A stretch of DNA of 64,000 bases, taken from positions 573,145 through 637,144 of the forward strand of contig NZ_FOWQ01000002.1 in NCBI RefSeq assembly GCF_900115505.1. The letters are read 5' to 3'. The stretch comes from Geodermatophilus dictyosporus. Lineage in GTDB: Bacteria > Actinomycetota > Actinomycetes > Mycobacteriales > Geodermatophilaceae. Below the pieces are notes generated by a model. That model had not been told where the DNA came from. It searched no databases and saw only the letters and a program-made list of their open reading frames with translations. Shown in pieces: positions 1-42,500 of this stretch; the first letter of the stretch is position 1, and every line of letters starts with the position of its first letter. The position numbers were made by a program, and so were the translations under genes.

Positions 1-2427
1 CTGGAGCTTGTCGCAGCCCATCTCGGTGAGCAGCTTGCGGGTCAGCTCGTCCTCGACGCCCTCGGCCACGACGCGCAGGCCCAGGTTGTGCGCGAGCTCG
101 ATGATCGAGCGGGCGATGAAGGACTCGCCCTGGCTGGTGGACATCCCCAGCACGAAGGACTTGTCGATCTTGACCTCGTCGATCGGCAGCTGGCGCAGTT
201 GCGACAGCGACGAGTAGCCGGTGCCGAAGTCGTCCATCGACAGCCGCAGGCCCAGGGCGTGCAGGTCGGCCAGGACGGTGCTGGAGCGGACCGAGTCGTC
301 GACCACGCTGCCCTCGGTGAGCTCGAGGATGAGCAGCTCGCCCGGGACGCCGTGGCGGCGCAGCGCCCGCTGCACCCGCTCGACGAGGTCGGGCTCGCTC
401 AGGCAGCGCGCGGAGAGGTTGACCGCCACCGACAGCGCGATGTCCTGGTCCAGCCACCGCCGGCAGCGGGCCAGCGCCAGGTCCAGCACGTGGTCGGTCA
501 GCGGGCCGATCCGGCCGATCTGCTCGGCGAGGTGGATGAAGTCGTCCGGCGGGATCGCACCGAAACGCGGGTGCGCCCAGCGGACCAGGGTCTCCACCGA
601 GACGATGTCGGAGGTCCGGGCGTCGATGATCGGCTGGAAGACCACGCTGATCTGCCCGCCGGCCATCGCCTGCTCCAGCTCGGTGCCCAGCTGCAGCCGG
701 CGCAGGCTCTGCTGGTCGAGCACCTGGTGGTAGCTGGCCACGCCGCCGCTCTCGGAGGCGGCGGCCAGCAGGGCGACGTCGGCCCGCTGCATCAGCGTGC
801 CCGAGTCGGTGCCGTGCGCAGGGGCGGCGGCGACGCCCACGGTGAGCGTGACCTCCAGGTCCAGGCCGGCCACCCGGGCGCGGGTGGAGGTGGCCTCCCG
901 CAACCGCCGGGCCGCGCGCTCGGCGGCCACCTGGGACAGCCCGGGCAGCAGGACGGCGAACTGCTCACCCTCCATGCGGGCGACCATCGCGTCGGGCGGC
1001 GCGTGCTCGCGCAGCAGCCCGGCGGTGACCAGGAGCAGCTCGTCGGCCGCGGCGTGCCCGAGGGTGTCGACGATCTCGGTGTGGTTGTCCAGGGCGGTCA
1101 GCACGAGACCGGCGCGCGCCCCGACCGGGTCGGCGCGGAGGAGCTGGTCGATCTCGGCGGCCAGCCGCTGCCGGTTGGGCAGACCGGTGAGCCGGTCGTG
1201 GTCGGCGTCGTAGCGGATCTGGGTGAGCAGCTGCTGCTGACGGATCGCCGCGTTGACGTGGGTGAGCATCGAGTCCAGCGCCGAGCGGTCGCCCTCGGAG
1301 AACGAGACGACGTCGCTGCGCCGGTCGCAGACCTCGAGGTAGCCGGGCTCGCCGGCGGCCGTGGTGACCGGCGCGCCCAGGACCTCCTGGGCGCCGCGCA
1401 GCGCGAGGGCGGCCGCCTCCTCGGGGCCCACCCGGCCGGGCGCGAACAGGAACGGCGCGGTGGACCCCGGGGTCAGGACACGGCGGCGCAGGGGGTCCTC
1501 GGAGTCACCCGGGCCCTCGTACCAGCTGGTGGCCGCGTCGTCGGAGTCGACGATGAGCCGGGGCGGCTCGTCGAGGTAGGGCGGCAGCCACAGCGCGACG
1601 CGCTCGGCGTTGAGGAGCTCCCGGATCGCCTTCACCAGCCGGCGCGCACCGTCCGCGTCCGGCGAGGTCTGCTCGACCTGCCGGGCGAAGGCGTAGACGG
1701 CCTCCAGCTCGCGCCCCTCACGGGTCACCGCGGCGAAGCGCCGGTACATGAGCGCGAGGCCGCCGAGCAGCGGGAGGACCAGGACCACGCCCCAGAGGCT
1801 GACCTCGACGACGAGCAGGACCGACAACCCGCTCAGCACCGCCATCGGCGTGACCGTGGCCGCCGGCAGCAGGACGCTCCACCACAGCTCGGGGCCGGTG
1901 TACCCCTGCGTCGCGATGATGGCCAGCCTGATGAGTCCCCCACCGACGATGGTGGCGACCACGATGGCGACGAGGTGGGCCAGCCAGGTCGCCGGCTCGG
2001 TGACGTCGCCGACGGGGAACAGGCGCAGGACGGCGACGGCGACGGCGACCTCGACGACCGCCAGCGCGGTGTTGGTGAGCGACTTGGCCGGGCTGTAGCG
2101 CTGGACGGCGCAGACCCCGCCGACCGCGACCGCCCGGGTGAGGGCGGTCCACGTCGGGCCGACCTCGACGAGGGCGATGACGAAGACCAGCTCCGAGGCC
2201 GACACCACCACGCTCTGCCGGCGGAACTCCACGTGCATGTTGGCCGACTCGGCGAGCACGAAGGCGCCGAGCACCACGAGCACCACGAGCGGTGAGGCGG
2301 GCTCGAACCGCGTGGGAAGAGCGAGGGACGCAGCGGCGAGGGCGACGAGGACGCTCAGCCAGCCGATGGTCGCCGGCCCCAGCGAGGCGACCGGCCAGCG
2401 CGGGGCGGGAGGGTCTTGCACGGCCAC
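1..2427 (-). CDS. Membrane GAF-GGDEF-EAL c-di-GMP signalling protein (C-terminus cut by window edge)
   Basis: The frame is open for 809 codons from GTG 2427 to base 1, where it leaves the window inside the EAL domain (last residues GCDKLQ, just before the usual final QGY). A GAGGACAGG ribosome-binding site precedes the GTG. Residues 1 to about 200 are hydrophobic with several membrane helices. A GAF-like region follows, then GGDEF, then EAL. The GGDEF signature reads EGEQF and no RxxD inhibitory site precedes it, so cyclase activity is unlikely. The EAL domain keeps the key acidic and lysine positions: ETLVRW in place of EALxRW, VNLSA, ELTE, DDFGTGYSS, KIDKSFV and VAEGVE. I infer an active phosphodiesterase with a degenerate, possibly GTP-sensing, GGDEF domain. 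It is the first of three GGDEF/EAL genes in 10 kb. Confidence 0.85.
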   Translation of the reverse strand, partial: MAVQDPPAPRWPVASLGPATIGWLSVLVALAAASLALPTRFEPASPLVVLVVLGAFVLAESANMHVEFRRQSVVVSASELVFVIALVEVGPTWTALTRAVAVGGVCAVQRYSPAKSLTNTALAVVEVAVAVAVLRLFPVGDVTEPATWLAHLVAIVVATIVGGGLIRLAIIATQGYTGPELWWSVLLPAATVTPMAVLSGLSVLLVVEVSLWGVVLVLPLLGGLALMYRRFAAVTREGRELEAVYAFARQVEQTSPDADGARRLVKAIRELLNAERVALWLPPYLDEPPRLIVDSDDAATSWYEGPGDSEDPLRRRVLTPGSTAPFLFAPGRVGPEEAAALALRGAQEVLGAPVTTAAGEPGYLEVCDRRSDVVSFSEGDRSALDSMLTHVNAAIRQQQLLTQIRYDADHDRLTGLPNRQRLAAEIDQLLRADPVGARAGLVLTALDNHTEIVDTLGHAAADELLLVTAGLLREHAPPDAMVARMEGEQFAVLLPGLSQVAAERAARRLREATSTRARVAGLDLEVTLTVGVAAAPAHGTDSGTLMQRADVALLAAASESGGVASYHQVLDQQSLRRLQLGTELEQAMAGGQISVVFQPIIDARTSDIVSVETLVRWAHPRFGAIPPDDFIHLAEQIGRIGPLTDHVLDLALARCRRWLDQDIALSVAVNLSARCLSEPDLVERVQRALRRHGVPGELLILELTEGSVVDDSVRSSTVLADLHALGLRLSMDDFGTGYSSLSQLRQLPIDEVKIDKSFVLGMSTSQGESFIARSIIELAHNLGLRVVAEGVEDELTRKLLTEMGCDKLQ

Positions 2428-2504
2428 TGGCACCTGTCCTCGCCGGGGAGTTGAGCGGAGGAGAGGCTAACAGCGCAGGGGCCGGATACCAGGCCCGTCG
2501 CCCC

Positions 2505-2528
2505 ACCTCCCCCTCGGGGGAGGGAGGT
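2505..2528. terminator. GC hairpin between the RGQKWG peptide gene and the GGDEF/EAL gene
   Basis: A CCTCCCCC/GGGGGAGG stem with a very short loop lies about 70 bases after the stop of the small peptide gene and 80 bases before the GGDEF/EAL start, both on the minus strand. No U-tract follows, which is common in high-GC actinobacteria. It could end the small transcript or act as an attenuator for the downstream gene. Confidence 0.4.
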
Positions 2529-2597
2529 CAGTGCGGCCGCGGGCCAGGTGGTAGGCCCGGCCGCCCGGACACCCGGACGGTCCGGCGCCGCACGCGC

Positions 2598-2687
2598 TCA
2601 GGCGGCCTGACGACCCCACTTCTGACCGCGGCCCCACTTCTGACCGCGACCCCACTTCTGACCACGGGCAGCAGCGTTGATGATCAT
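2598..2687 (-). CDS. 29-residue cationic Trp-rich peptide with three RGQKWG repeats
   Basis: ATG 2687 is preceded at 4-5 bases by a strong GAGGAGG ribosome-binding site, and the frame stops at TGA after 29 residues. The peptide starts MIINAAA, then has three back-to-back RGQKWG units and ends RQAA. It carries seven Arg/Lys and no Asp or Glu. The DNA of the three units is also nearly repeated, with synonymous differences at Arg and Gly codons. I do not recognise the family. It has no hydrophobic signal or membrane segment. It lies about 170 bases upstream of the GGDEF/EAL gene, so it could be a free small protein, a leader peptide whose three Trp codons are read for attenuation, or a precursor of a repeated peptide product. 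No modifying enzyme is visible nearby. A conserved leader shared with the small gene at 4339-4572 precedes it. Confidence 0.6.
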   Translation of the reverse strand: MIINAAARGQKWGRGQKWGRGQKWGRQAA

Positions 2688-2740
2688 GACGCCTCCTCAG
2701 GCATGAAGACAGCTCTCCGGGATTGCGGGCTGTCACCCAG

Positions 2741-2855
2741 GCGCGGGGGCAGAGCGTCGTTCGTGTACGGACCGCGCCCGGAACCCTGCTGCCCGTCCCT
2801 CCGGCGGGGCAAGCACGCACGATCACGGAAGAGTGACGAGCCGTTATGTCGTCAC
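2741..2855 (-). promoter_or_regulatory. Conserved leader/operator element, copy A
   Basis: About 115 bases upstream of the RGQKWG peptide gene match the region 4624-4737 upstream of another small minus-strand gene at roughly 80% by eye; the 26 bases closest to the genes are identical. Read on the minus strand it has, in order: an inverted repeat ATGTCGTCAC-type arm pair (GTGACGA, 9 bases, TCGTCAC at 2833-2855), a GC-rich middle, and a GCGCGG/CCGCGC stem enclosing a conserved loop containing ACGAACGACGCTCTGCC. The distance from the element to the start codon is close to 55 bases in both copies. I cannot match it to a known riboswitch class. It may be an operator plus 5' UTR structure or a small RNA. 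Confidence 0.55.
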
Positions 2856-2901
2856 GCAGCGTTGCACACGATCGCCAAAGGGTCACCGATACGGGTGACG
2901 A
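2833..2901. promoter_or_regulatory. Cluster of GTGACGA half-sites (candidate operator)
   Basis: GTGACGA at 2833 and TCGTCAC ending at 2855 form an inverted pair with a 9-base centre. A third GTGACGA follows at 2895-2901 and overlaps a second inverted repeat GTCACC-N6-GGTGAC (2882-2899). The other leader copy near 4715-4769 also has three half-sites. The position between divergent genes suggests control of the small peptide gene and possibly the TadE/G-like gene. The binding protein is unknown. Confidence 0.4.
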
Positions 2902-2959
2902 CTGGGGCGCAAGGGGCGAACGTCCCTGTGGAGAGGGGGCGGGGACGACCCCGCCGACC

Positions 2960-2965
2960 TACGCT
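2960..2965 (+). promoter_or_regulatory. TACGCT -10 box of a likely leaderless promoter
   Basis: TACGCT lies six bases before GTG 2972 with no ribosome-binding site between them. This spacing puts the transcription start on or next to the start codon, a common arrangement in actinobacteria. I see no convincing -35 box. Confidence 0.35.
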
Positions 2966-2971
2966 CCCGCC

Positions 2972-3403
2972 GTGCCAGCGGGGTCGGTGGAGGGTGAGCG
3001 GGGCTCGGCGCTGCCCTTCGTGCTCGTCTGCTGGCTGGTCGCCGCGTTCATGGCACTGGGCGCGATCGCCGCCTCCGACGCCGTCCTCGAGCACCAGGAC
3101 GTCCAGGCGGTCTGCGATGGCGCCGCCCTGGCCGCGGCCAACCGGACCGACGAGGGGCGGGTCTACGCCTCGGGGGTCGGCGAGCAGCTGCCGCTCACCG
3201 GGGAGACGGCGCGGACGGCGGTCGCCGACCACCTGGCCGACGGCGGGAGCACGCTGGACGCCTGGGCGGCCCAGACCGACGGCGTGGAGGTCACCGTCCG
3301 CTGCGCGCGCTCGGTGGAGGTCGCCTTCGGCTGGCTGTTCCTCGGCGGGCGGCCCCTGGAGGTCACCGCCGTCGCCAGTGCCCGGGCGCCCACGCTGGGC
3401 TGA
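2972..3403 (+). CDS. TadE/TadG-like pilus-assembly family membrane protein
   Basis: The 143-residue product has a short charged N-terminus (EGERGSALPFVL), one N-terminal membrane helix (about residues 12-36) and an extracytoplasmic part rich in Ala and Thr. The sequence QAVCDGAALAAANR after the helix is the pattern of TadE/TadG-like proteins that accompany Flp pilus systems, where the gene encodes a minor pilin or helicase-secretion partner. No other tad genes are near, so its role is unclear. I chose GTG 2972 because the preceding in-frame ATG at 2846 lies inside the conserved leader element, and a TACGCT box just before 2972 fits leaderless expression. Confidence 0.6.
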   Translation: MPAGSVEGERGSALPFVLVCWLVAAFMALGAIAASDAVLEHQDVQAVCDGAALAAANRTDEGRVYASGVGEQLPLTGETARTAVADHLADGGSTLDAWAAQTDGVEVTVRCARSVEVAFGWLFLGGRPLEVTAVASARAPTLG

Positions 3404-3420
3404 CCGCCCCCACACGGCGA

Positions 3421-3450
3421 GCGGCCCCCGACCTGCCGGTCGGGGGCCGC
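3421..3450. terminator. Perfect 13-bp hairpin terminator
   Basis: GCGGCCCCCGACC and its exact complement flank a four-base loop. It lies between the plus-strand TadE/G-like gene and the minus-strand tRNA-Tyr, so it can terminate both convergent transcripts. Confidence 0.75.
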
Positions 3451-3460
3451 TGCACGGGGG

Positions 3461-3542
3461 TGGCGGGTGAAGGATTCGAACCTTCGTAGGCTAAGCCGAC
3501 GGATTTACAGTCCGCTCCCATTGGCCACTCGGGCAACCCGCC
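3461..3542 (-). tRNA. tRNA-Tyr (anticodon GTA)
   Basis: The minus strand folds as an 82-base class II tRNA. The acceptor stem is GGCGGGT/ACCCGCC with discriminator A, the anticodon loop contains CTGTAAA, there is a long variable arm, and the T arm contains GGTTCGAATCC. The next two bases are CC, so part of CCA follows. A terminator hairpin lies directly downstream. Confidence 0.95.
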
Positions 3543-3633
3543 CTGGTCCCACGGGAGAGAGCGTACAAGACGGGCCGGTGACGGCCCGACGGGTCCCGTC
3601 GCGGGTACCCCGCGCGGGAGTGAGGAGCACACC

Positions 3634-4125
3634 GTGGCCGACTCGTCCTTCGACGTCGTGAGCAAGGTCGACCGCCAGGAGATCGACAACGCGCTCAACC
3701 AGGCCGCCAAGGAGATCGCCCAGCGCTTCGACTTCCGCGGCACGAACGCCTCGATCAGCTGGGCCGGCGAGAACGGCGTGACGCTGCAGGCCGACACCGA
3801 GGAGCGGGTCAACGCCGCCCTCGACGTCTTCCGCGACAAGCTCGTCAAGCGCGGCATCTCGCTCAAGGCCCTGGACGCCGACGAGCCGCAGGCCTCGGGC
3901 CGGGCCTACAAGCTCTCCGCGCGGATCAAGCAGGGCATCGAGTCCGACACCGCGAAGAAGATCGCCAAGATCATCCGCGACGAGGGCCCGAAGGGCGTGC
4001 AGGCGCAGATCCAGGGCGACCAGTTGCGGGTGACCGGCAAGAAGCGCGACGACCTGCAGGCGGTGCAGCAGCTGCTGCGCGGCAAGGACCTCGACGTCGC
4101 CCTCCAGTTCGACAACTACCGGTGA
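3634..4125 (+). CDS. yajQ: YajQ family c-di-GMP/nucleotide-binding protein
   Basis: The 163-residue product ([20 protein letters not shown] at the N-terminus, [13 protein letters not shown], ending ALQFDNYR) matches the full length of the YajQ/DUF520 family. Known members have two ferredoxin-like domains, and some bind cyclic di-GMP and modulate transcription factors. GTG 3634 has a GAGGAG ribosome-binding site. The gene stands between two GGDEF/EAL loci, which fits a c-di-GMP effector, although nucleotide specificity of actinobacterial members is not established by sequence. A hairpin terminator follows it. Confidence 0.9.
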
Positions 4126-4284
4126 GCTGACCCCTGGCGCAGCGCCGGGGCCCGTCGGTGCGCTCGATCCGCACCCGATCCGCAGGAGCGCGCACCGCGG
4201 CCGTCGGCAGGTGCGCGGCCGCGCCCGCTGGTGCCGGCCAGGTCGTGCCGTCCTGGTCCCCCACCGACCTGGTCGCACCACCGG

Positions 4285-4327
4285 CTGACGCCCGCCCGGC
4301 GCGGCGTGCCAGGCGGGCGGGCGTCAG
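4285..4327. terminator. Strong 14-bp hairpin between convergent genes
   Basis: CTGACGCCCGCCCG pairs perfectly with CGGGCGGGCGTCAG around a 15-base loop. It separates yajQ from the convergent small membrane protein gene and can serve both. Confidence 0.75.
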
Positions 4328-4338
4328 CGGTGAGCGGA

Positions 4339-4572
4339 TCAGTGGCGCGCGGACCGGCCGAGGCCGAGGAGGACCAGGACCGCAGCCATGGCTGCGACGA
4401 CCTGCATCGCCTGGTCGACGTCTCGGGTGATCACGAGGGTCACTGCCATCAGGCTGGCCAGGATGGCGACGATCGCGACGAGATCCCCCCCGCTCGGCGG
4501 CGCACTCGACGGTGCCGGCAGCGAGGGCTCCTCGCGGACCGTCGGACTGCTCTGACGGGTCTTCTTTGGCAT
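4339..4572 (-). CDS. 77-residue small membrane protein of unknown function
   Basis: ATG 4572 follows a GGAGGA ribosome-binding site at good spacing, so I prefer it to the in-frame ATG 18 bases upstream. The product begins MPKKTRQSS, has a Pro/Ser-rich cytoplasmic stretch to about residue 28, a helix around residues 30-48, a short charged loop TRDVDQ, and a second hydrophobic stretch to residue 71. I do not recognise a family. Its promoter region carries the same conserved leader as the RGQKWG peptide gene. It is divergent from the GGDEF/EAL gene at 4864, so a link to c-di-GMP signalling is possible but unproven. Confidence 0.65.
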   Translation of the reverse strand: MPKKTRQSSPTVREEPSLPAPSSAPPSGGDLVAIVAILASLMAVTLVITRDVDQAMQVVAAMAAVLVLLGLGRSARH

Positions 4573-4623
4573 GGTTCCTCCGCGGATCAAGGCTGAGGTG
4601 GGTCGGGAGCGGCACCCACTCGC

Positions 4624-4737
4624 GCGCGGGGGCAGAGCGTCGTTCGTGTCAGGACCGCGCCCCGACCGTGCTCCCCGTCACTCCGGCGAGACAAGCACGG
4701 AGGATCACGACGGGGTGACGAGACGTCATGTCGTCAC
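4624..4737 (-). promoter_or_regulatory. Conserved leader/operator element, copy B
   Basis: This is the partner of the element at 2741-2855. It has the same order of parts: an inverted repeat with GTGACGA/TCGTCAC arms, a GC-rich middle, and a GCGCGG/CCGCGC stem around a loop with ACACGAACGACGCTCTGCC. The downstream small gene starts about 55 bases further on. Some differences fall in the middle part while the promoter-distal hairpin loop is almost unchanged, which suggests selection on the RNA or on protein binding. Confidence 0.55.
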
Positions 4738-4769
4738 CGTGTGCCGTGGACGGTCGACGTCTCGTCACC
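4714..4769. promoter_or_regulatory. Array of GTGACGA half-sites in the divergent GGDEF/EAL promoter
   Basis: GGTGACGA (4714-4721) and TCGTCACC (4731-4738) form an inverted pair with a 9-base centre. A further copy makes a perfect 14-bp inverted repeat, GGTGACGAGACGTC at 4714-4727 and its complement at 4756-4769. The array lies between the small membrane protein gene and the divergent GGDEF/EAL gene. Confidence 0.4.
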
Positions 4770-4863
4770 AGAGCGGTGTCCGATGCGGAGGTCGGACGAC
4801 CGGTCCGGCACCGGGCGGGCGGGAGCGGTCAACACCGCACGCCGCGCCGCCGATGACGGGCGG

Positions 4864-7110
4864 GTGAACGCCACGCTCGACAGCTCCGTGCCCGGTCCGG
4901 GCACCGGCGCGGCCGACGCCGGTGGGCCCGGCCGGGGCCCCGGCTTCCGGTTGACCGCCCGCGTCTTCTGGGACCTCGCCGTCTACATGGTCGGGCTCGG
5001 GCTCGCCGTCGGTCTCGTGTTCCCCCCGTTCGCGACCGCCCTGGGTGTGCCCGGTGCCTACGCCGAGCGCGTCTGGTTCCGCGCGGCCTGCCTGATCGCC
5101 GGGTTCCTGGTCGGTGCCCTGAGCTACGCGATCTGCCGGTGGGTGGTCGGTGGCCGGCTGGCCGTGCTGAGCGGCCACCTCCGCCAGGTGGCCGAGGCGG
5201 TGGCCCAGGCCAGCCGCACCGGCGACTGGTCGGCCTCCAGCTCCGCCCGGATCCCCGCCGACTCCGACGACCAGCTCGGCGAGACGGCGCGGGCCTTCAA
5301 CAGCCTGCTCGACGCCCTGGAGGTCGGGCAGCACTTCCGGTCGCTGATCCGCAACGCCTCCGACGTCATCACCATCGTCGACACCGCCGGGCGGATCACC
5401 TACCAGACGCCGTCGGTCGGCTGGGTGCTCGGTTACCCGCCCGGCGGCCTGGTCGGCACCGAGATGGCCGCGCTGATCCACCCCGAGGACGCCGGGCACT
5501 TCGCCGCCCAGCTGGCCGAGTCCAGCGCCGGCCTGCCGGCCACGGCGCCGATCGGGTGCCGCATGCGCCACCGCAACGGCTCCTGGCGCTGGACGGAGAC
5601 GGTCGTCAACGACCTCCGGCACGACCCGGCCGTCAGCGGGGTCGTCCTGAGCACGCGCGACGTCAGCGACCGGCGCGAGCTGGAGGAGCAGCTCCGGACG
5701 CAGGCCTTCTACGACCCGCTCACCGACCTGCCCAACCGCAGCCTCTTCCTCGAGCGGCTGCGCGCCGCCGAGGAGGCCCTGGAGGTCCACGGCATCCCGC
5801 TGGCCCTGCTCTACCTCGACATGGACGACCTCAAGGCGGTCAACGACGACGTCGGCCACGAGGGCGGCGACCGCCTGCTGCAGGTGGTGAGCACCCGGAT
5901 CCTCGACTGCCTGCGGCCGGCCGACGTGTTCGCGCGCCTGGAGGGCGACGAGTTCGCCGTCCTGCTCACCGGTCCCGCCAGCGAGCGCGAGGCGCTGCGC
6001 ACCGCCGAGCGCATCCTGGCCGCGCTGGTGCAGCCGGTGCTCGTCGACGACGGGTTCGTCCAGCCGGCGGCCAGCCTGGGCGTGGCCACCTCCACCGCCG
6101 CCGCCAGCAGCGGCATCGGGATCCTGCGGGCCGCCGACGTCGCGCTGTCGATCGCCAAGGCCACCGGCAAGGGGCGCTGCGAGACCTTCCAGCCCCGCCA
6201 CCACGCCGTCCAGCTCGAGCGCGAGCGGCTGCAGGCGGACCTCCAGCACGCGCTCGACGGCGACCAGCTGGTCGTCCACTACCAGCCGCTGGTGGACCTG
6301 GGCAGCGGCCGCATCGACGGCTACGAGGCGCTGCTGCGCTGGCAGCACCCCGAGCGCGGCCTGGTGTCACCGGCGGATTTCATCCCCCTGGCCGAGACCT
6401 CCGGGCTCATCGTCCCCGTCGGCCGGTGGGTCCTGCGCGAGGCCACGGCCCAGGCCGCCACCTGGCAGCACCCGGCCGACCCCACCGGCGTGCACGTCAG
6501 CGTGAACGTGTCGGTGCGCCAGTTCGCCCACGGGGACCTGCTGCACGACGTCGCCGACGCACTGCGCCGCTCCGGGCTGCCGCCCCACCTGCTCACCCTG
6601 GAGATCACCGAGAGCCTGTTCGCCTCGGACATCCGCGACGTCACCCTCAAGCTCGAGCGGCTCAAGGACCTCGGCGTCCGTCTCGCCCTGGACGACTTCG
6701 GCACCGGCTACTCGTCGCTGTCCTACCTGCGCCGCTTCCCCTTCGACATCCTCAAGATCGACAAGTCCTTCGTCGAGGACATCGACGCCAACCGGCAGAA
6801 CCAGGCGGTCGCGAGCGCCATCGTCACGCTCGGGCAGACCCTCGAACTCGACCTGGTCGCCGAGGGCATCGAGACCCCGGGTGAGCTGCGCAGCCTGGAG
6901 GCCCTCGGCGTCCACCTCGGCCAGGGCTTCCACCTCGGCCGGCCGGGGCCGGCCGCGCTGGTCTGCCCCACCCCCGGCATCCGCCGGGTCGAGCGCCGGG
7001 ACCCCGACTCGGTCGGCGCGCCGCTGCGCGGCCGGGGCGACGCCGGGCCGACGCCGATGACGGCGCGGCCGCCCGTCCCGCCCCGCGGCCGGCACGCGGC
7101 CGACGGCTGA
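4864..7110 (+). CDS. Membrane HAMP-PAS-GGDEF-EAL c-di-GMP cyclase/phosphodiesterase
   Basis: About 748 residues from GTG 4864. Residues 35-60 and 78-102 are two membrane helices around a short external loop. A HAMP-like linker (DSDDQLGETARAFNSL) follows, then a PAS domain (about 160-280), a GGDEF domain with signature EGDEF and inhibitory RPAD five residues before it, and an EAL domain with intact EALLRW, DDFGTGYSS and KIDKSFV motifs. Both activities are plausible. The N-terminal half matches the protein at 8620-10401, which supports this start; in-frame ATGs at 4783 and 4741 would add 27 or 41 residues. The final 40 residues after EAL are Pro/Arg-rich and look disordered. Confidence 0.85.
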   Translation: MNATLDSSVPGPGTGAADAGGPGRGPGFRLTARVFWDLAVYMVGLGLAVGLVFPPFATALGVPGAYAERVWFRAACLIAGFLVGALSYAICRWVVGGRLAVLSGHLRQVAEAVAQASRTGDWSASSSARIPADSDDQLGETARAFNSLLDALEVGQHFRSLIRNASDVITIVDTAGRITYQTPSVGWVLGYPPGGLVGTEMAALIHPEDAGHFAAQLAESSAGLPATAPIGCRMRHRNGSWRWTETVVNDLRHDPAVSGVVLSTRDVSDRRELEEQLRTQAFYDPLTDLPNRSLFLERLRAAEEALEVHGIPLALLYLDMDDLKAVNDDVGHEGGDRLLQVVSTRILDCLRPADVFARLEGDEFAVLLTGPASEREALRTAERILAALVQPVLVDDGFVQPAASLGVATSTAAASSGIGILRAADVALSIAKATGKGRCETFQPRHHAVQLERERLQADLQHALDGDQLVVHYQPLVDLGSGRIDGYEALLRWQHPERGLVSPADFIPLAETSGLIVPVGRWVLREATAQAATWQHPADPTGVHVSVNVSVRQFAHGDLLHDVADALRRSGLPPHLLTLEITESLFASDIRDVTLKLERLKDLGVRLALDDFGTGYSSLSYLRRFPFDILKIDKSFVEDIDANRQNQAVASAIVTLGQTLELDLVAEGIETPGELRSLEALGVHLGQGFHLGRPGPAALVCPTPGIRRVERRDPDSVGAPLRGRGDAGPTPMTARPPVPPRGRHAADG

Positions 7111-7133
7111 CGGTCCCGGACCGTCGGACCGTC
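7109..7133. terminator. Hairpin between convergent genes
   Basis: GACGGTCC and GGACCGTC form an 8-bp stem with a 9-base loop. It overlaps the stop codons of the plus-strand GGDEF/EAL gene and the minus-strand aminotransferase. Confidence 0.55.
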
Positions 7134-8493
7134 AGACCGGGGCCGCCACGCGGGGGCGGACCCGCGGCACGTAGTCGCCGCGCTCGTCGAGCACGTACTG
7201 CCCGGCGCCCTCGGGACTGGCGGCGATCTCGCGCAGCGCCTGGCCGAGCAGCGGGATGTCGGTGAGGTAGGTCTGCCGGTTGGCGCTGACCCGCACCGCG
7301 CCGGGCAGCCGGTGCCGGTTCCCCGCCCGCACGTCGGCGTGGAACCGGTCGACCTCGGCGTCGGAGAGGCCGAGCAGCCGGCCCATGTAGGGGTGGGCGC
7401 AGAAGCAGCCGCTGCGGGTGCCGATCGCGTACTCGTTGGCCAGCCGCGCGGCGAGCAGACCGTGGGGCACGCCCTCGAGGTTGAAGGCGGCGACCGGCAG
7501 CCGGTCCCCCGTGACCGGGCCCAGCCGGCGCAGCCCGGGCACCGAGCGCAGCTCGGAGTCCAGCGCCCGGACCAGGTGGTCCTCGTGCGCGCGCACCGTC
7601 GACCAGCCGTCGCTGCGCAGCTCGTCGGCCGCCGCGGTGAGGGCCACGACGCCGACCACGTTCGGCGAGCCGGCGTCGTCGCGGTCGGGACCGTCGGCCC
7701 AGATGACGTCGTCGAAGGAGACGGCGCCGACCGCGCCGCCCCCGACGAGGAACGGCTCGCCGCGGGTGAGCAGCGCCCGGGGCACCACCAGGGCGCCGGC
7801 ACCGAAGGGCGCGTACATCTTGTGCCCGGAGAAGGCGATGACGTCGACGCCGAGGGCGGTGATGTCCACCGGGCGGTGCGGCACCAGCTGCGCACCGTCG
7901 ACGACCACGAGCACACCGCGCTCGCGCGCGGCCGCCGCGATCGCCCGCAGGTCGGGCAGCCAGCCGGTGACGTTGGAGCCGCCGGTCACGGCGAGCACGC
8001 GCGGCCGCGGCTGCTGGTCGAGGGCGGCCTCGACCGCGGCGACGTCGAAGGTGCCGCTCCGGTCGACGTCGACGACCCGCAGCTGCGCGTGCCGGCGCCA
8101 GGGCAGCAGGTTGGCGTGGTGCTCGACGGCGGTGGTCACCACGACGTCGTCCCGGGACAGGCCCAGGCGGAAGGCGAGCAGGTTGATCGCCTCGGTGGTG
8201 TTGCGCGGGAACAGCGCCACGTGCGTGGCGGGGTCGCCGCCGACGAAGCGCGTGATCACCTCGCGCGCCTCCTCGTACCGGGCGCTGGTGAGCTGGGACC
8301 GGATGCCAGCGCCGCGGTGCACGCTCGCGTACCACGGCAGGAAGTCCTGCACCGCACGCGCGACGACGACCGACGCCGAGCTGGTGGCGGCGGTGTCGAG
8401 GTCCACGTACTGGCGCGGGCGGCCGTCGAGGACCGAGACCCACAGGTCGTCGCCCACGTACTGGCCGGCCGTGAAGGACAGCGTCATCTCCAT
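7132..8493 (-). CDS. Class V PLP-dependent aminotransferase / cysteine desulfurase-like protein
   Basis: 453 residues from ATG 8493, chosen because GGAGAGG lies at ribosome-binding distance and the longer in-frame alternatives run into the promoter region of the divergent gene. The fold markers are present: AVEHHANLLPW, the aspartate in VVDGAQLVPH that holds PLP, the Schiff-base lysine in SGHKMYAPFGAG, and RSGCFCAHPYM with a cysteine in the desulfurase loop position. The family includes SufS/Csd desulfurases, isopenicillin-N epimerases and selenocysteine lyases, and the sequence alone does not fix the substrate. It lies between two paralogous GGDEF/EAL genes and is divergent from the second, with 126 bases between the starts. 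Confidence 0.8.
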   Translation of the reverse strand: MEMTLSFTAGQYVGDDLWVSVLDGRPRQYVDLDTAATSSASVVVARAVQDFLPWYASVHRGAGIRSQLTSARYEEAREVITRFVGGDPATHVALFPRNTTEAINLLAFRLGLSRDDVVVTTAVEHHANLLPWRRHAQLRVVDVDRSGTFDVAAVEAALDQQPRPRVLAVTGGSNVTGWLPDLRAIAAAARERGVLVVVDGAQLVPHRPVDITALGVDVIAFSGHKMYAPFGAGALVVPRALLTRGEPFLVGGGAVGAVSFDDVIWADGPDRDDAGSPNVVGVVALTAAADELRSDGWSTVRAHEDHLVRALDSELRSVPGLRRLGPVTGDRLPVAAFNLEGVPHGLLAARLANEYAIGTRSGCFCAHPYMGRLLGLSDAEVDRFHADVRAGNRHRLPGAVRVSANRQTYLTDIPLLGQALREIAASPEGAGQYVLDERGDYVPRVRPRVAAPV

Positions 8494-8619
8494 GCAAGGC
8501 AGATCGGCCTCTCCGACCATTCCTTGAACGACTGCTGCAAACTCCTCACAAATGGTGGAATGGTCCGGGAACGTCGGGGAGTTCCTCAAGTCACACCGCG
8601 GCCGGCCGATCTGTCCTGC

Positions 8620-10401
8620 ATGACGCTGCACGATCCGCCGGCCCCGCAGCGGCCGCGCACCCGCCGGGGTTTCCGGCTGACCTCCCGCGTGTTCTGGGAC
8701 ATGGCCATCTACATGGTCGGTCTGGGCCTGGCCGTCGGGGTCGTCTTCCCGCCGTTCGCCGTGCTGCTCGGCGTCCCGGAGACGATCGCCCACCGTCCCG
8801 TGTTCGGCACCGCCTGCCTCGTGGCCGGCTTCCTCGTGGGCGCCATGAACTACGCCCTGTGCCGCGGGGTCGTCGGCGGGCGCATGGAGGTGCTGGCCAG
8901 CCACCTGCGGTCGGCGACCAGCGTGGTCGGCTCGGCCTCGAGCTCCGGCGACTGGTCAGCGGCGGTGTTCGAGCGGATCGACGTCGACTCCGACGACCAG
9001 ATCGGTGAGGCCGGCCGCGCCTTCAACAGCCTGCTGGGCGCGGTCGAGGGCCGCAAGGAGCTGGAGGAGCGGCTGCGGTTCCAGGCCTTCCACGACGTGC
9101 TCACCGGCCTGCCCAACCGCGCCTACTTCATGGAGCGGCTGGCCGAGGCCGAGGCCGCGCACGCGCGGACCGGTGACCGGTCGGCGGTGCTCTTCCTCGA
9201 CGTGGACAACCTCAAGGCGGTCAACGACAACCTCGGCCACGAGGGCGGCGACCACCTGATCAAGCTGCTCGGGGAGCGCATGGTCGGCTCCGTCCGGGAC
9301 ACCGACACCGTCGCCCGCCTCTCCGGTGACGAGTTCGCCATCCTGCTCACCGGCCCGGGCAGCGCCCACCAGGCCGAGCGCGTCGCGCACCGCATCCTGG
9401 ACTCGCTGCGGGCGCCCACCCGCATCGGCGAGCACGCGGTGCGGACCGGCGTGAGCATCGGCCTGGCCACCTCCGACGCGTGCGCCCCCACCGGCATCAC
9501 CATGCTGCGCGCCGCCGACCTGGCCATGTACGCGGCCAAGACCGACGGCAAGGGCCGGCTGGAGGTGTTCCAGCCCAGCCACCACACCGCCCAGGTGCGC
9601 CGGGACGCCGTCCGGGCCGAGCTGTCCGGGGCGCTGGACGCCGAGCAGCTCGAGCTGCACTACCAGCCCATCGTCGACGTGTCCTCGCAGGTGATCGTCG
9701 GGTTCGAGGCGCTGCTGCGGTGGCGTCACCCCGAGCGCGGCCTGGTGTCGCCGCTGGAGTTCATCCCGCTGGCCGAGGAGACCGGCCTGATCGTGCCGAT
9801 CGGCCGCTGGGTGCTCCAGGCGGCCACCCGGCAGGCCGCCGAGTGGCAGCACCGCTCACCGCTGGGCCGGCTGCGGATGAGCGTCAACGTGTCGGTCCGC
9901 CAGTTCCAGCACCCGGACCTCGTCGGGGACGTGGCCGAGGCGCTGCGGACGTCGGGGCTGGCCCCGTCGCTGCTGACGCTGGAGATCACCGAGTCCCTCT
10001 TCGTGCACGACACCGAGGAGACGACCCGCAAGCTGGCGCAGCTCAAGGACCTCGGCGTCCGGCTGGCCCTCGACGACTTCGGCACCGGGTACTCCTCGCT
10101 GGGCTACCTGCGGCGCTTCCCCATCGACACGCTGAAGATCGACAAGTCCTTCGTCGACGGCGTGGCCTCCAGCCCCGAGGGGCACGCGGTGGTCGCGGCG
10201 ATCACGCAGCTGGGCCAGGACCTGCGCCTGGAGGTGGTCGCCGAGGGGCTCGAGACCGGCGACCAGGTCGACATCCTCAAGGCGCTGGCCTGCCCGCTCG
10301 GCCAGGGCTACCACTTCTCCCGCCCGCTGGTCCCCGGCGACGCGGTGAAGCTGCTGCTCACCGGGCGCCGGTCGGACCCCCGGATGCTCGTCCCCGCCTG
10401 A
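8620..10401 (+). CDS. Membrane HAMP-GGDEF-EAL c-di-GMP cyclase/phosphodiesterase
   Basis: 593 residues from ATG 8620. It starts with a short Pro/Arg-rich tail, then two membrane helices whose sequence (FRLTSRVFWDMAIYMVGLGL...) parallels the paralogue at 4864-7110. A HAMP-like linker (DSDDQIGEAGRAFNSLL) joins directly to GGDEF, so the PAS domain of the paralogue is absent. The cyclase signature is SGDEF with an RDTD inhibitory site five residues before it. The EAL domain has FEALLRW, VNVSVRQF, ITESLF, DDFGTGYSS, KIDKSFVDG and VVAEGLE, so phosphodiesterase residues are intact. The reading frame is open far upstream but lies antisense to the aminotransferase there, so only the part from 8620 is real. 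Confidence 0.88.
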   Translation: MTLHDPPAPQRPRTRRGFRLTSRVFWDMAIYMVGLGLAVGVVFPPFAVLLGVPETIAHRPVFGTACLVAGFLVGAMNYALCRGVVGGRMEVLASHLRSATSVVGSASSSGDWSAAVFERIDVDSDDQIGEAGRAFNSLLGAVEGRKELEERLRFQAFHDVLTGLPNRAYFMERLAEAEAAHARTGDRSAVLFLDVDNLKAVNDNLGHEGGDHLIKLLGERMVGSVRDTDTVARLSGDEFAILLTGPGSAHQAERVAHRILDSLRAPTRIGEHAVRTGVSIGLATSDACAPTGITMLRAADLAMYAAKTDGKGRLEVFQPSHHTAQVRRDAVRAELSGALDAEQLELHYQPIVDVSSQVIVGFEALLRWRHPERGLVSPLEFIPLAEETGLIVPIGRWVLQAATRQAAEWQHRSPLGRLRMSVNVSVRQFQHPDLVGDVAEALRTSGLAPSLLTLEITESLFVHDTEETTRKLAQLKDLGVRLALDDFGTGYSSLGYLRRFPIDTLKIDKSFVDGVASSPEGHAVVAAITQLGQDLRLEVVAEGLETGDQVDILKALACPLGQGYHFSRPLVPGDAVKLLLTGRRSDPRMLVPA

Positions 10402-42291: not shown

Positions 42292-42304
42292 GGTGATGAT
42301 CTCC

Positions 42305-42500
42305 CGATCACCGCCGGCGAGGTGAGCTGTCGGGTTCGGGCGATCGAGTGCCCGGCCGCGGTTCGCGGCTTCACCCCGGAGGCGCGCTCCGACAGGCCCT
42401 CGTGGGCCGTCGCGCGCCGGAAGTGGTTCCCCCACCCCTGCCCTGGGACTGGACGGTTGGCGCGCGGTGGGCAGGGTTTGGCGGACCGGCGCTGCGCTCC
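42305..42500 (-). ncRNA. ydaO/yuaA-type c-di-AMP riboswitch
   Basis: On the minus strand, directly upstream of the Rpf-like gene, are the conserved blocks of the ydaO-yuaA motif. These are GCCAAACCCTGCCC, then CAGGGGTGGGGGAACCAC, then GGGGTGAAGCC, and finally CCGAACCCGACAGCTCACCT with CGCCGGCGG, which closes the P1 helix against GCGCCGG at the 5' end. In actinobacteria this riboswitch class is known upstream of rpf and other wall-hydrolase genes, where c-di-AMP binding turns expression off. The match is by eye; boundaries are approximate. Confidence 0.85.

Follow-up and report, generated by a model that had tools for sequence, protein, structure and literature searches.

In the staphylococcal agr system (AgrD/AgrC) and in Bacillus ComX/ComP, a peptide gene and the gene for a hypervariable membrane sensor lie side by side and diversify together, and specificity groups differ between close relatives. 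The yeast alpha-factor precursor holds several identical short copies of a peptide that is specific to the species and is paired with a cognate membrane receptor. RRNPP systems (Rap-Phr, NprR-NprX, PlcR-PapR) also join adjacent propeptide and cognate receptor genes, with a mature peptide of about 5-6 residues. S components are membrane proteins that bind ligands. A 2024 study showed the S-component fold to be the receptor in 5TMR proteins, some of which are fused to GAF, GGDEF and EAL domains (PMC11109136). According to a 2016 review, only 25 of 342 actinobacterial genera had reports of quorum sensing, nine of these were backed by experiments, and the signals listed were mostly small molecules (PMC4748050). 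In a 2022 census of c-di-GMP signalling inputs, the one mention of peptides was as ligands that periplasmic-binding-protein domains might bind (PMC8846402). Among open-licence PMC papers we found no match for a peptide pheromone linked to c-di-GMP, for subtilase arrays or for Geodermatophilaceae signalling, and a description elsewhere is possible. The gene pair reported here appears to be a bacterial system for signalling between cells through c-di-GMP that has yet to be described. We think it quite probable that its upstream gene encodes the precursor of a multi-copy short Trp peptide signal, which would be sensed by a downstream S-component-fold receptor governing c-di-GMP turnover.

The window, that is the whole stretch of 64,000 nucleotides analysed, comes from Geodermatophilus dictyosporus (contig NZ_FOWQ01000002.1). 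The precursor ORF lies on its minus strand at 2598..2687 and encodes the 29 aa peptide MIINAAARGQKWGRGQKWGRGQKWGRQAA, with three identical RGQKWG units at 2649..2666, 2631..2648 and 2613..2630 (all minus). The start codon ATG is at 2687-2685 and the stop codon TGA at 2600-2598. A strong and conserved Shine-Dalgarno stretch, CCTGAGGAGGCGTC (2688..2701, minus), abuts the ATG, as seen in the upstream-region alignment and the start contexts. The peptide has seven positive charges (four R and three K), no negative ones and three Trp, and pairwise comparison of its units gave four synonymous and no non-synonymous codon differences. An earlier note on this DNA had described the repeat peptide, its ribosome-binding site, its charge and Trp content, the synonymous divergence of its units and a GGDEF/EAL gene downstream. 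All of these descriptions were correct, the last gene being directly next and on the same strand. On comparative sequence evidence the ORF is a real gene and not a chance frame, because its start, Shine-Dalgarno stretch and frame were conserved at once in about 27 relatives, and in the 105 loci of the family recovered by script. In a tblastn-type search of 60 relatives, the precursor orthologues shared the start context and all of them had tandem hexads, the hexad depending on the species (RGHKWS, RGSKWG, RGNRWS, RGAKWA, RGSRWN, TNKWTR and others).

Upstream of the ORF, a conserved element (CTTGCC..GGCAGCAA; GCGCGGTCCGTAC..GACGCTCTGCCCCCGCGC) spans 2702..2870 on the minus strand and is probably the promoter or leader region of the precursor. 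The Rfam search of the window and the locus returned no family at this element. In the alifold analysis of the aligned leaders, the Shine-Dalgarno region paired with GACGCTCTGCC. The window's own leader folded no better than its shuffles (z -0.08); we therefore make no claim of a riboswitch and dropped the leader as a candidate structured RNA. Elsewhere in the window, at 42296-42465 (minus), a c-di-AMP (ydaO/yuaA) riboswitch scored above the Rfam gathering score. Part of the upstream element (2734-2855, minus) had a second copy at 4617-4737 (minus), 82-88% identical, and these were the only two strong copies in the genome. The second copy precedes a small membrane-protein ORF (4572-4339, minus), which is divergent from another GGDEF/EAL gene. 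Several GTGAC/GTCAC half-sites were present 5′ of the precursor, at 2755-2870 (minus) and in the homologous upstream regions. These may resemble the boxes of BldD, a c-di-GMP effector.

The receptor gene lies directly downstream of the precursor and is co-directional with it (1..2433, minus). It is cut by the window start, its open frame in the genome being 861 aa. It encodes, in order, an S-component-fold membrane domain, a GAF domain (1243..1644, minus), a degenerate GGDEF domain (757..1206, minus) and an EAL domain that runs off the window (1..681, minus). The membrane domain (residues 18-217; 1783..2382, minus) is hypervariable and is the presumed peptide-binding domain. Across the family the GGDEF signature is mostly degenerate (EGxQF) and the EAL motifs ETL, DDFGTG, KIDKSF and VAEGVE are conserved. 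Judged from these motifs, the output is likely to be a regulated phosphodiesterase. Three GGDEF-EAL genes and a YajQ gene (3634-4125, plus) were found within 1-10401 of the window.

The membrane domain was folded alone, since with the GAF domain attached the Foldseek list was dominated by GAF matches. The AlphaFold2 model had a pLDDT of 89. In VIA-align, the top 21 structural matches were NikM/CbiM and ECF S components, with Z falling from 14.2 to 9.6, followed by Lnt at Z 9.5 and below. Matches to NikM/CbiM, FolT, RibU, ThiT and BioY had Z of 10-14 over 150-190 residues. The best Foldseek match was RibU (probability 1.00, with a modest E of 0.02), in agreement with an S-component fold. As modelled, the domain has the fold of an ECF S component. 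The fold by itself does not reveal the ligand, here presumed to be the peptide. The Pfam scan gave no 5TMR match in the window receptor.

The family set comprised 115 Geodermatophilaceae genomes, including Geodermatophilus, Blastococcus, Modestobacter, Klenkia and Goekera. The receptor gene was present in 109 of them. A W-peptide precursor preceded the same membrane GAF-GGDEF-EAL gene in all 110 loci examined; 105 precursors were called by script (directly upstream and co-directional) and five were read by eye. The earlier note had proposed counting unit copies across the family, and this count found the array throughout, each of the 105 scripted loci having 2-5 copies. No frameshifts, which the note had named as grounds for rejection, were seen at orthologous loci. 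The eye-read precursors included that of Goekera, which has one copy, RTVRWG, at its C-terminal end. Those of two small genera placed in the family (g8 and g10) had arrays of GVSWG, GVSWN, GTAWN and GAAWN, and in two cases a hydrophobic N-terminal signal could be seen before the array. The spacing between precursor and receptor was about 150-250 bp.

By the hydrophobicity criterion, most Geodermatophilaceae precursors, including that of the window, lacked a signal peptide. Among the scanned family neighbourhoods, no dedicated exporter or protease was a constant neighbour, a point against export from Geodermatophilaceae. The conserved neighbours were YajQ, a TadE/G-like protein, an M48 peptidase, POR, MaoC dehydratases, an aminotransferase, NusG and L1. 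The TadE/G-like (Tad) gene (2846-3403, plus) is divergent from the precursor and was conserved as its neighbour at 23 of the 27 loci. An M48 metalloprotease gene was frequent about 2.5 kb upstream of the precursor (L054:7332-8309; cluster c11, 17 loci).

Among the 105 scripted loci there were 68 different hexad units. Position 5 was Trp in every locus, position 1 was Arg in 98 and position 4 was Lys or Arg in 98. The units of one precursor were identical at positions 1-5 in 94 of the 105 loci, and identical in DNA in only nine. Within loci, codon differences between units were synonymous in 563 cases and non-synonymous in 28, the opposite direction from the neutral expectation (a site ratio of roughly 129:410, or about 1:3). 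Together with the rarity of DNA-identical units, this indicates that selection, and not recent duplication, holds the units identical. Judged from the sequences, such identity within a precursor is the pattern expected if each unit yields the same product, and it would be unexpected for a Trp attenuator.

The unit also varied together with the membrane domain of the receptor. Median amino acid distances among family loci were 0.61 for the membrane domain, 0.28 for GAF and 0.14 for GGDEF-EAL. Where the GGDEF-EAL distance was below 0.06, the membrane-domain distance was 0.09, 0.33, 0.48, 0.55 and 0.60 for zero to four unit differences, respectively. Among 48 non-overlapping closest pairs, it was 0.087 for the nine pairs with equal units and 0.476 for the 39 with unequal units (p 9e-6), the GGDEF-EAL medians of the same pairs being 0.022 and 0.033. 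The nearest neighbour shared the unit in 46 of 105 loci when chosen by membrane domain and in 22 of 105 when chosen by GGDEF-EAL. Close pairs with unequal units were 36-60% identical in the membrane domain, 67-88% in GAF and mostly 93-99% in GGDEF-EAL, and the leader 5′ of their precursors was 87-88% identical in DNA. At the window locus, the nearest relative by GGDEF-EAL (genome G002, distance 0.020) nevertheless has another unit, RGSKWG, and differs by 0.60 in the membrane domain. By membrane domain, the nearest loci were mostly from RGHKW or RGQKW species, the group that the window's own unit also resembles. By analogy, this pattern looks like the specificity-module exchange of the agr and ComX systems.

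A partial Mantel test of unit against membrane domain, controlled for GAF and GGDEF-EAL, gave r 0.25 (p 0.001). Because the precursor adjoins the membrane domain, linkage can account for some of the correlation, and it does contribute, since GAF and flanking-DNA distances also followed the unit, more weakly. A test for pairwise coupling between unit positions and individual residues of the membrane domain found no credible sites among the family loci.

Outside the family, a membrane-GAF profile search detected homologues in 27 of 48 and 46 of 79 genomes of the order, and in 31 of 247 genomes of the class. A single scripted criterion was applied to the genes upstream of 79 such receptors and to 215 other genes as controls. 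A W-array, or a signal followed by a W peptide, was found for 49 of the 79 receptors (47 without L321 and L333, which on inspection by eye were judged spurious) and for two of the 215 controls, both spurious (Fisher p 1.4e-30). Of the 30 receptors missed by the script, several have a precursor by eye and others do not. Secretion signals were judged by hydrophobicity and are therefore called apparent. The precursors included octad arrays (DGGSWTFA, DGNTWTFV), an apparent signal peptide with a short C-terminal W peptide (..MDFDWN, ..NSHKWY, ..EEVEWT), and a large group with MSGRRLGRLLGSLLVLAA..DVVWG in one family (f16, genus g27). Others had a signal followed by three GASWN units with spacers (L329) or by AGTRWG..RGTRWG (L305). 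With the same receptor class, Trp-free repeats also occurred behind a signal, namely SSGEVA, GGSGEIA and GASLT, the last about 18 times (L286, L361 and L315).

In many class-level genomes, the gene upstream of the receptor encoded a subtilase of the S8 family ending in a W-peptide array; the two that were scanned matched Pfam PF00082. The tails carried GSSWR 19 times, GLRWN 11 times, GAGWR 22 times and GSQWS 12 times, and also SARWS, GRTWA and GATWS. Array-tailed subtilases directly upstream of S-fold c-di-GMP receptors were seen at L306:1-1428 and L309:2700-4151 (minus), and at L312, L311, L320 and L289. From this arrangement, it is possible that they are self-processing pheromone precursors. 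A DNA pattern search for W-hexads across the order yielded mostly noise, as judged from a reversed control. HHWGKR repeats (G156/G148) were considered as members of the system and rejected, being His-rich secreted proteins with no linked receptor. Small secreted His/Trp/Arg-rich proteins with this repeat were seen in genus g24 (L297:4810-5275 and L298:4791-5265), where no receptor of the class was linked.

We propose that the ORF yields the unit R-x-x-[K/R]-W-[G/S/T/N] in several identical copies placed in tandem. In Geodermatophilaceae the array would be exported and cut at the Arg between the cores, which is the likely cleavage site, releasing a core such as GQKWG. The mature peptide would enter the pocket of the S-fold domain from outside the cell. 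The signal would then pass through GAF, altering the phosphodiesterase activity of EAL and shifting the c-di-GMP level. Peptide and receptor domain would diversify and be swapped jointly, giving rise to species-specific "pherotypes". It also seems probable that this is an Actinomycetes-wide class of peptide pheromones, with tandem units of 5-6 residues, mostly x-x-x-W-[G/S/T/N], a hypervariable S-fold receptor fused to c-di-GMP enzymes and exchangeable pherotypes. Its precursors would take the form of leaderless arrays, signal-peptide precursors and arrays on a secreted subtilase, which may itself be the processing enzyme.

The main weakness of this proposal is that most family members have no signal peptide, which leaves room for the explanation that the peptide is not secreted. 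The product could then be a small subunit, intracellular or at the membrane surface, which uses its Trp/Arg repeats to bind the membrane domain within its own cell and set the activity of the receptor. The strong positive charge of the peptide, the constant gene pairing and the covariation with the membrane domain would all suit such a subunit. However, relatives of the gene pair, two genera placed in the same family (L186 and L187) among them, carry N-terminal signals or subtilase fusions, and 2-22 identical copies of a unit are more natural for a released multi-copy product. We regard an unsecreted subunit as unlikely. Simple linkage, with a small ORF and a membrane domain that both evolve fast on one recombination-prone segment and have no interaction with each other, would agree with the short distance between the two and with the GAF and flanking-DNA distances that follow the unit. 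It appears improbable, as it does not suit a leader whose DNA is still 87% identical in the type of pair where the membrane domain drops to 36-60% amino acid identity, the strong purifying selection on units within a locus, or a pairing that recurs across the class with differing precursor architectures.

The earlier note had suggested a Trp-codon leader peptide, at which ribosome stalling would control expression of the GGDEF/EAL gene. It was right about the functional partner, and a short ORF with a strong Shine-Dalgarno stretch, 2-5 Trp codons and a conserved leader region upstream of that gene would fit an attenuator. The mechanism is scarcely credible, as it needs only the Trp codons and all six unit positions are held identical within loci. 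Moreover, the unit co-diversifies with the receptor membrane domain, the upstream leader is no more stable than shuffles, and in relatives the motif follows an apparent secretion signal, forms the C-terminal end of a secreted protease, or lacks Trp. The note's suggestion of a nucleic-acid- or membrane-binding small protein found no positive support, and its multi-core precursor came close to the reading preferred here, a multi-copy peptide signal precursor. A multi-core antimicrobial precursor, bacteriocin-like or RiPP, for which the membrane protein encoded beside it would be the sensor or confer immunity, is very improbable. Species-specific variation is also typical of bacteriocins, and the peptide is cationic, Trp-rich, multi-copy and variable in its unit between species. 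Among the conserved neighbours scanned, however, there was no modifying enzyme, exporter or immunity-like gene (an unlinked enzyme is possible), the partner is a signalling protein, and the units of relatives are often neutral or acidic (DVVWG, SSGEVA, DGGSWT).

If the multi-copy peptide signal is real, one gene pair would hold the peptide code, the receptor fold and the output, and the exact peptide would be predicted for more than 100 species. Pherotype specificity, peptide binding by an S-component fold and population control of c-di-GMP would become testable with synthetic pentapeptides.

Among known systems, RRNPP receptors are cytosolic with TPR and are encoded next to a propeptide that carries a Sec signal, whereas the Pfam scan found no TPR in this actinobacterial receptor, which combines a membrane-embedded S-fold domain with GAF-GGDEF-EAL. 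The 5TMR/LytS-type receptors share the S-component-like membrane receptor domain and the fusions to GAF, GGDEF and EAL, and the searched passages of the study that describes them contain nothing on peptide ligands or on a tandem-repeat precursor linked to the receptor (PMC11109136). Like agr and ComX/ComP, the present pair consists of adjacent, co-diversifying genes. Unlike them, it has multi-copy linear units and a GAF-GGDEF-EAL output, and no AgrB-like protease, histidine kinase or response regulator was found among its conserved neighbours. In ComQXP, a ComQ prenyltransferase encoded next door modifies a single Trp pheromone, and ComP is a kinase; here no ComQ is adjacent and the receptor is no kinase. 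A polyprenyl synthetase fragment was seen 9-10 kb away at one locus (L054; cluster in 8 of 27 loci). The alpha-factor system is matched in the several identical units of its precursor (2-5 in the scripted family loci and up to 22 in relatives), in a species-specific peptide with a proposed cognate membrane receptor and, in some relatives, in spacers and an apparent secretion signal. Such a signal is absent from most Geodermatophilaceae precursors, and in many relatives it is suggested by hydrophobicity or subtilase fusion. The present system differs in being bacterial, in the leaderless arrays without spacers of many Geodermatophilaceae, and in a receptor that is not a GPCR, having instead an S-component-fold domain fused to c-di-GMP enzymes. 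The system proposed here would work like agr, ComX and alpha-factor, and it belongs to none of them.
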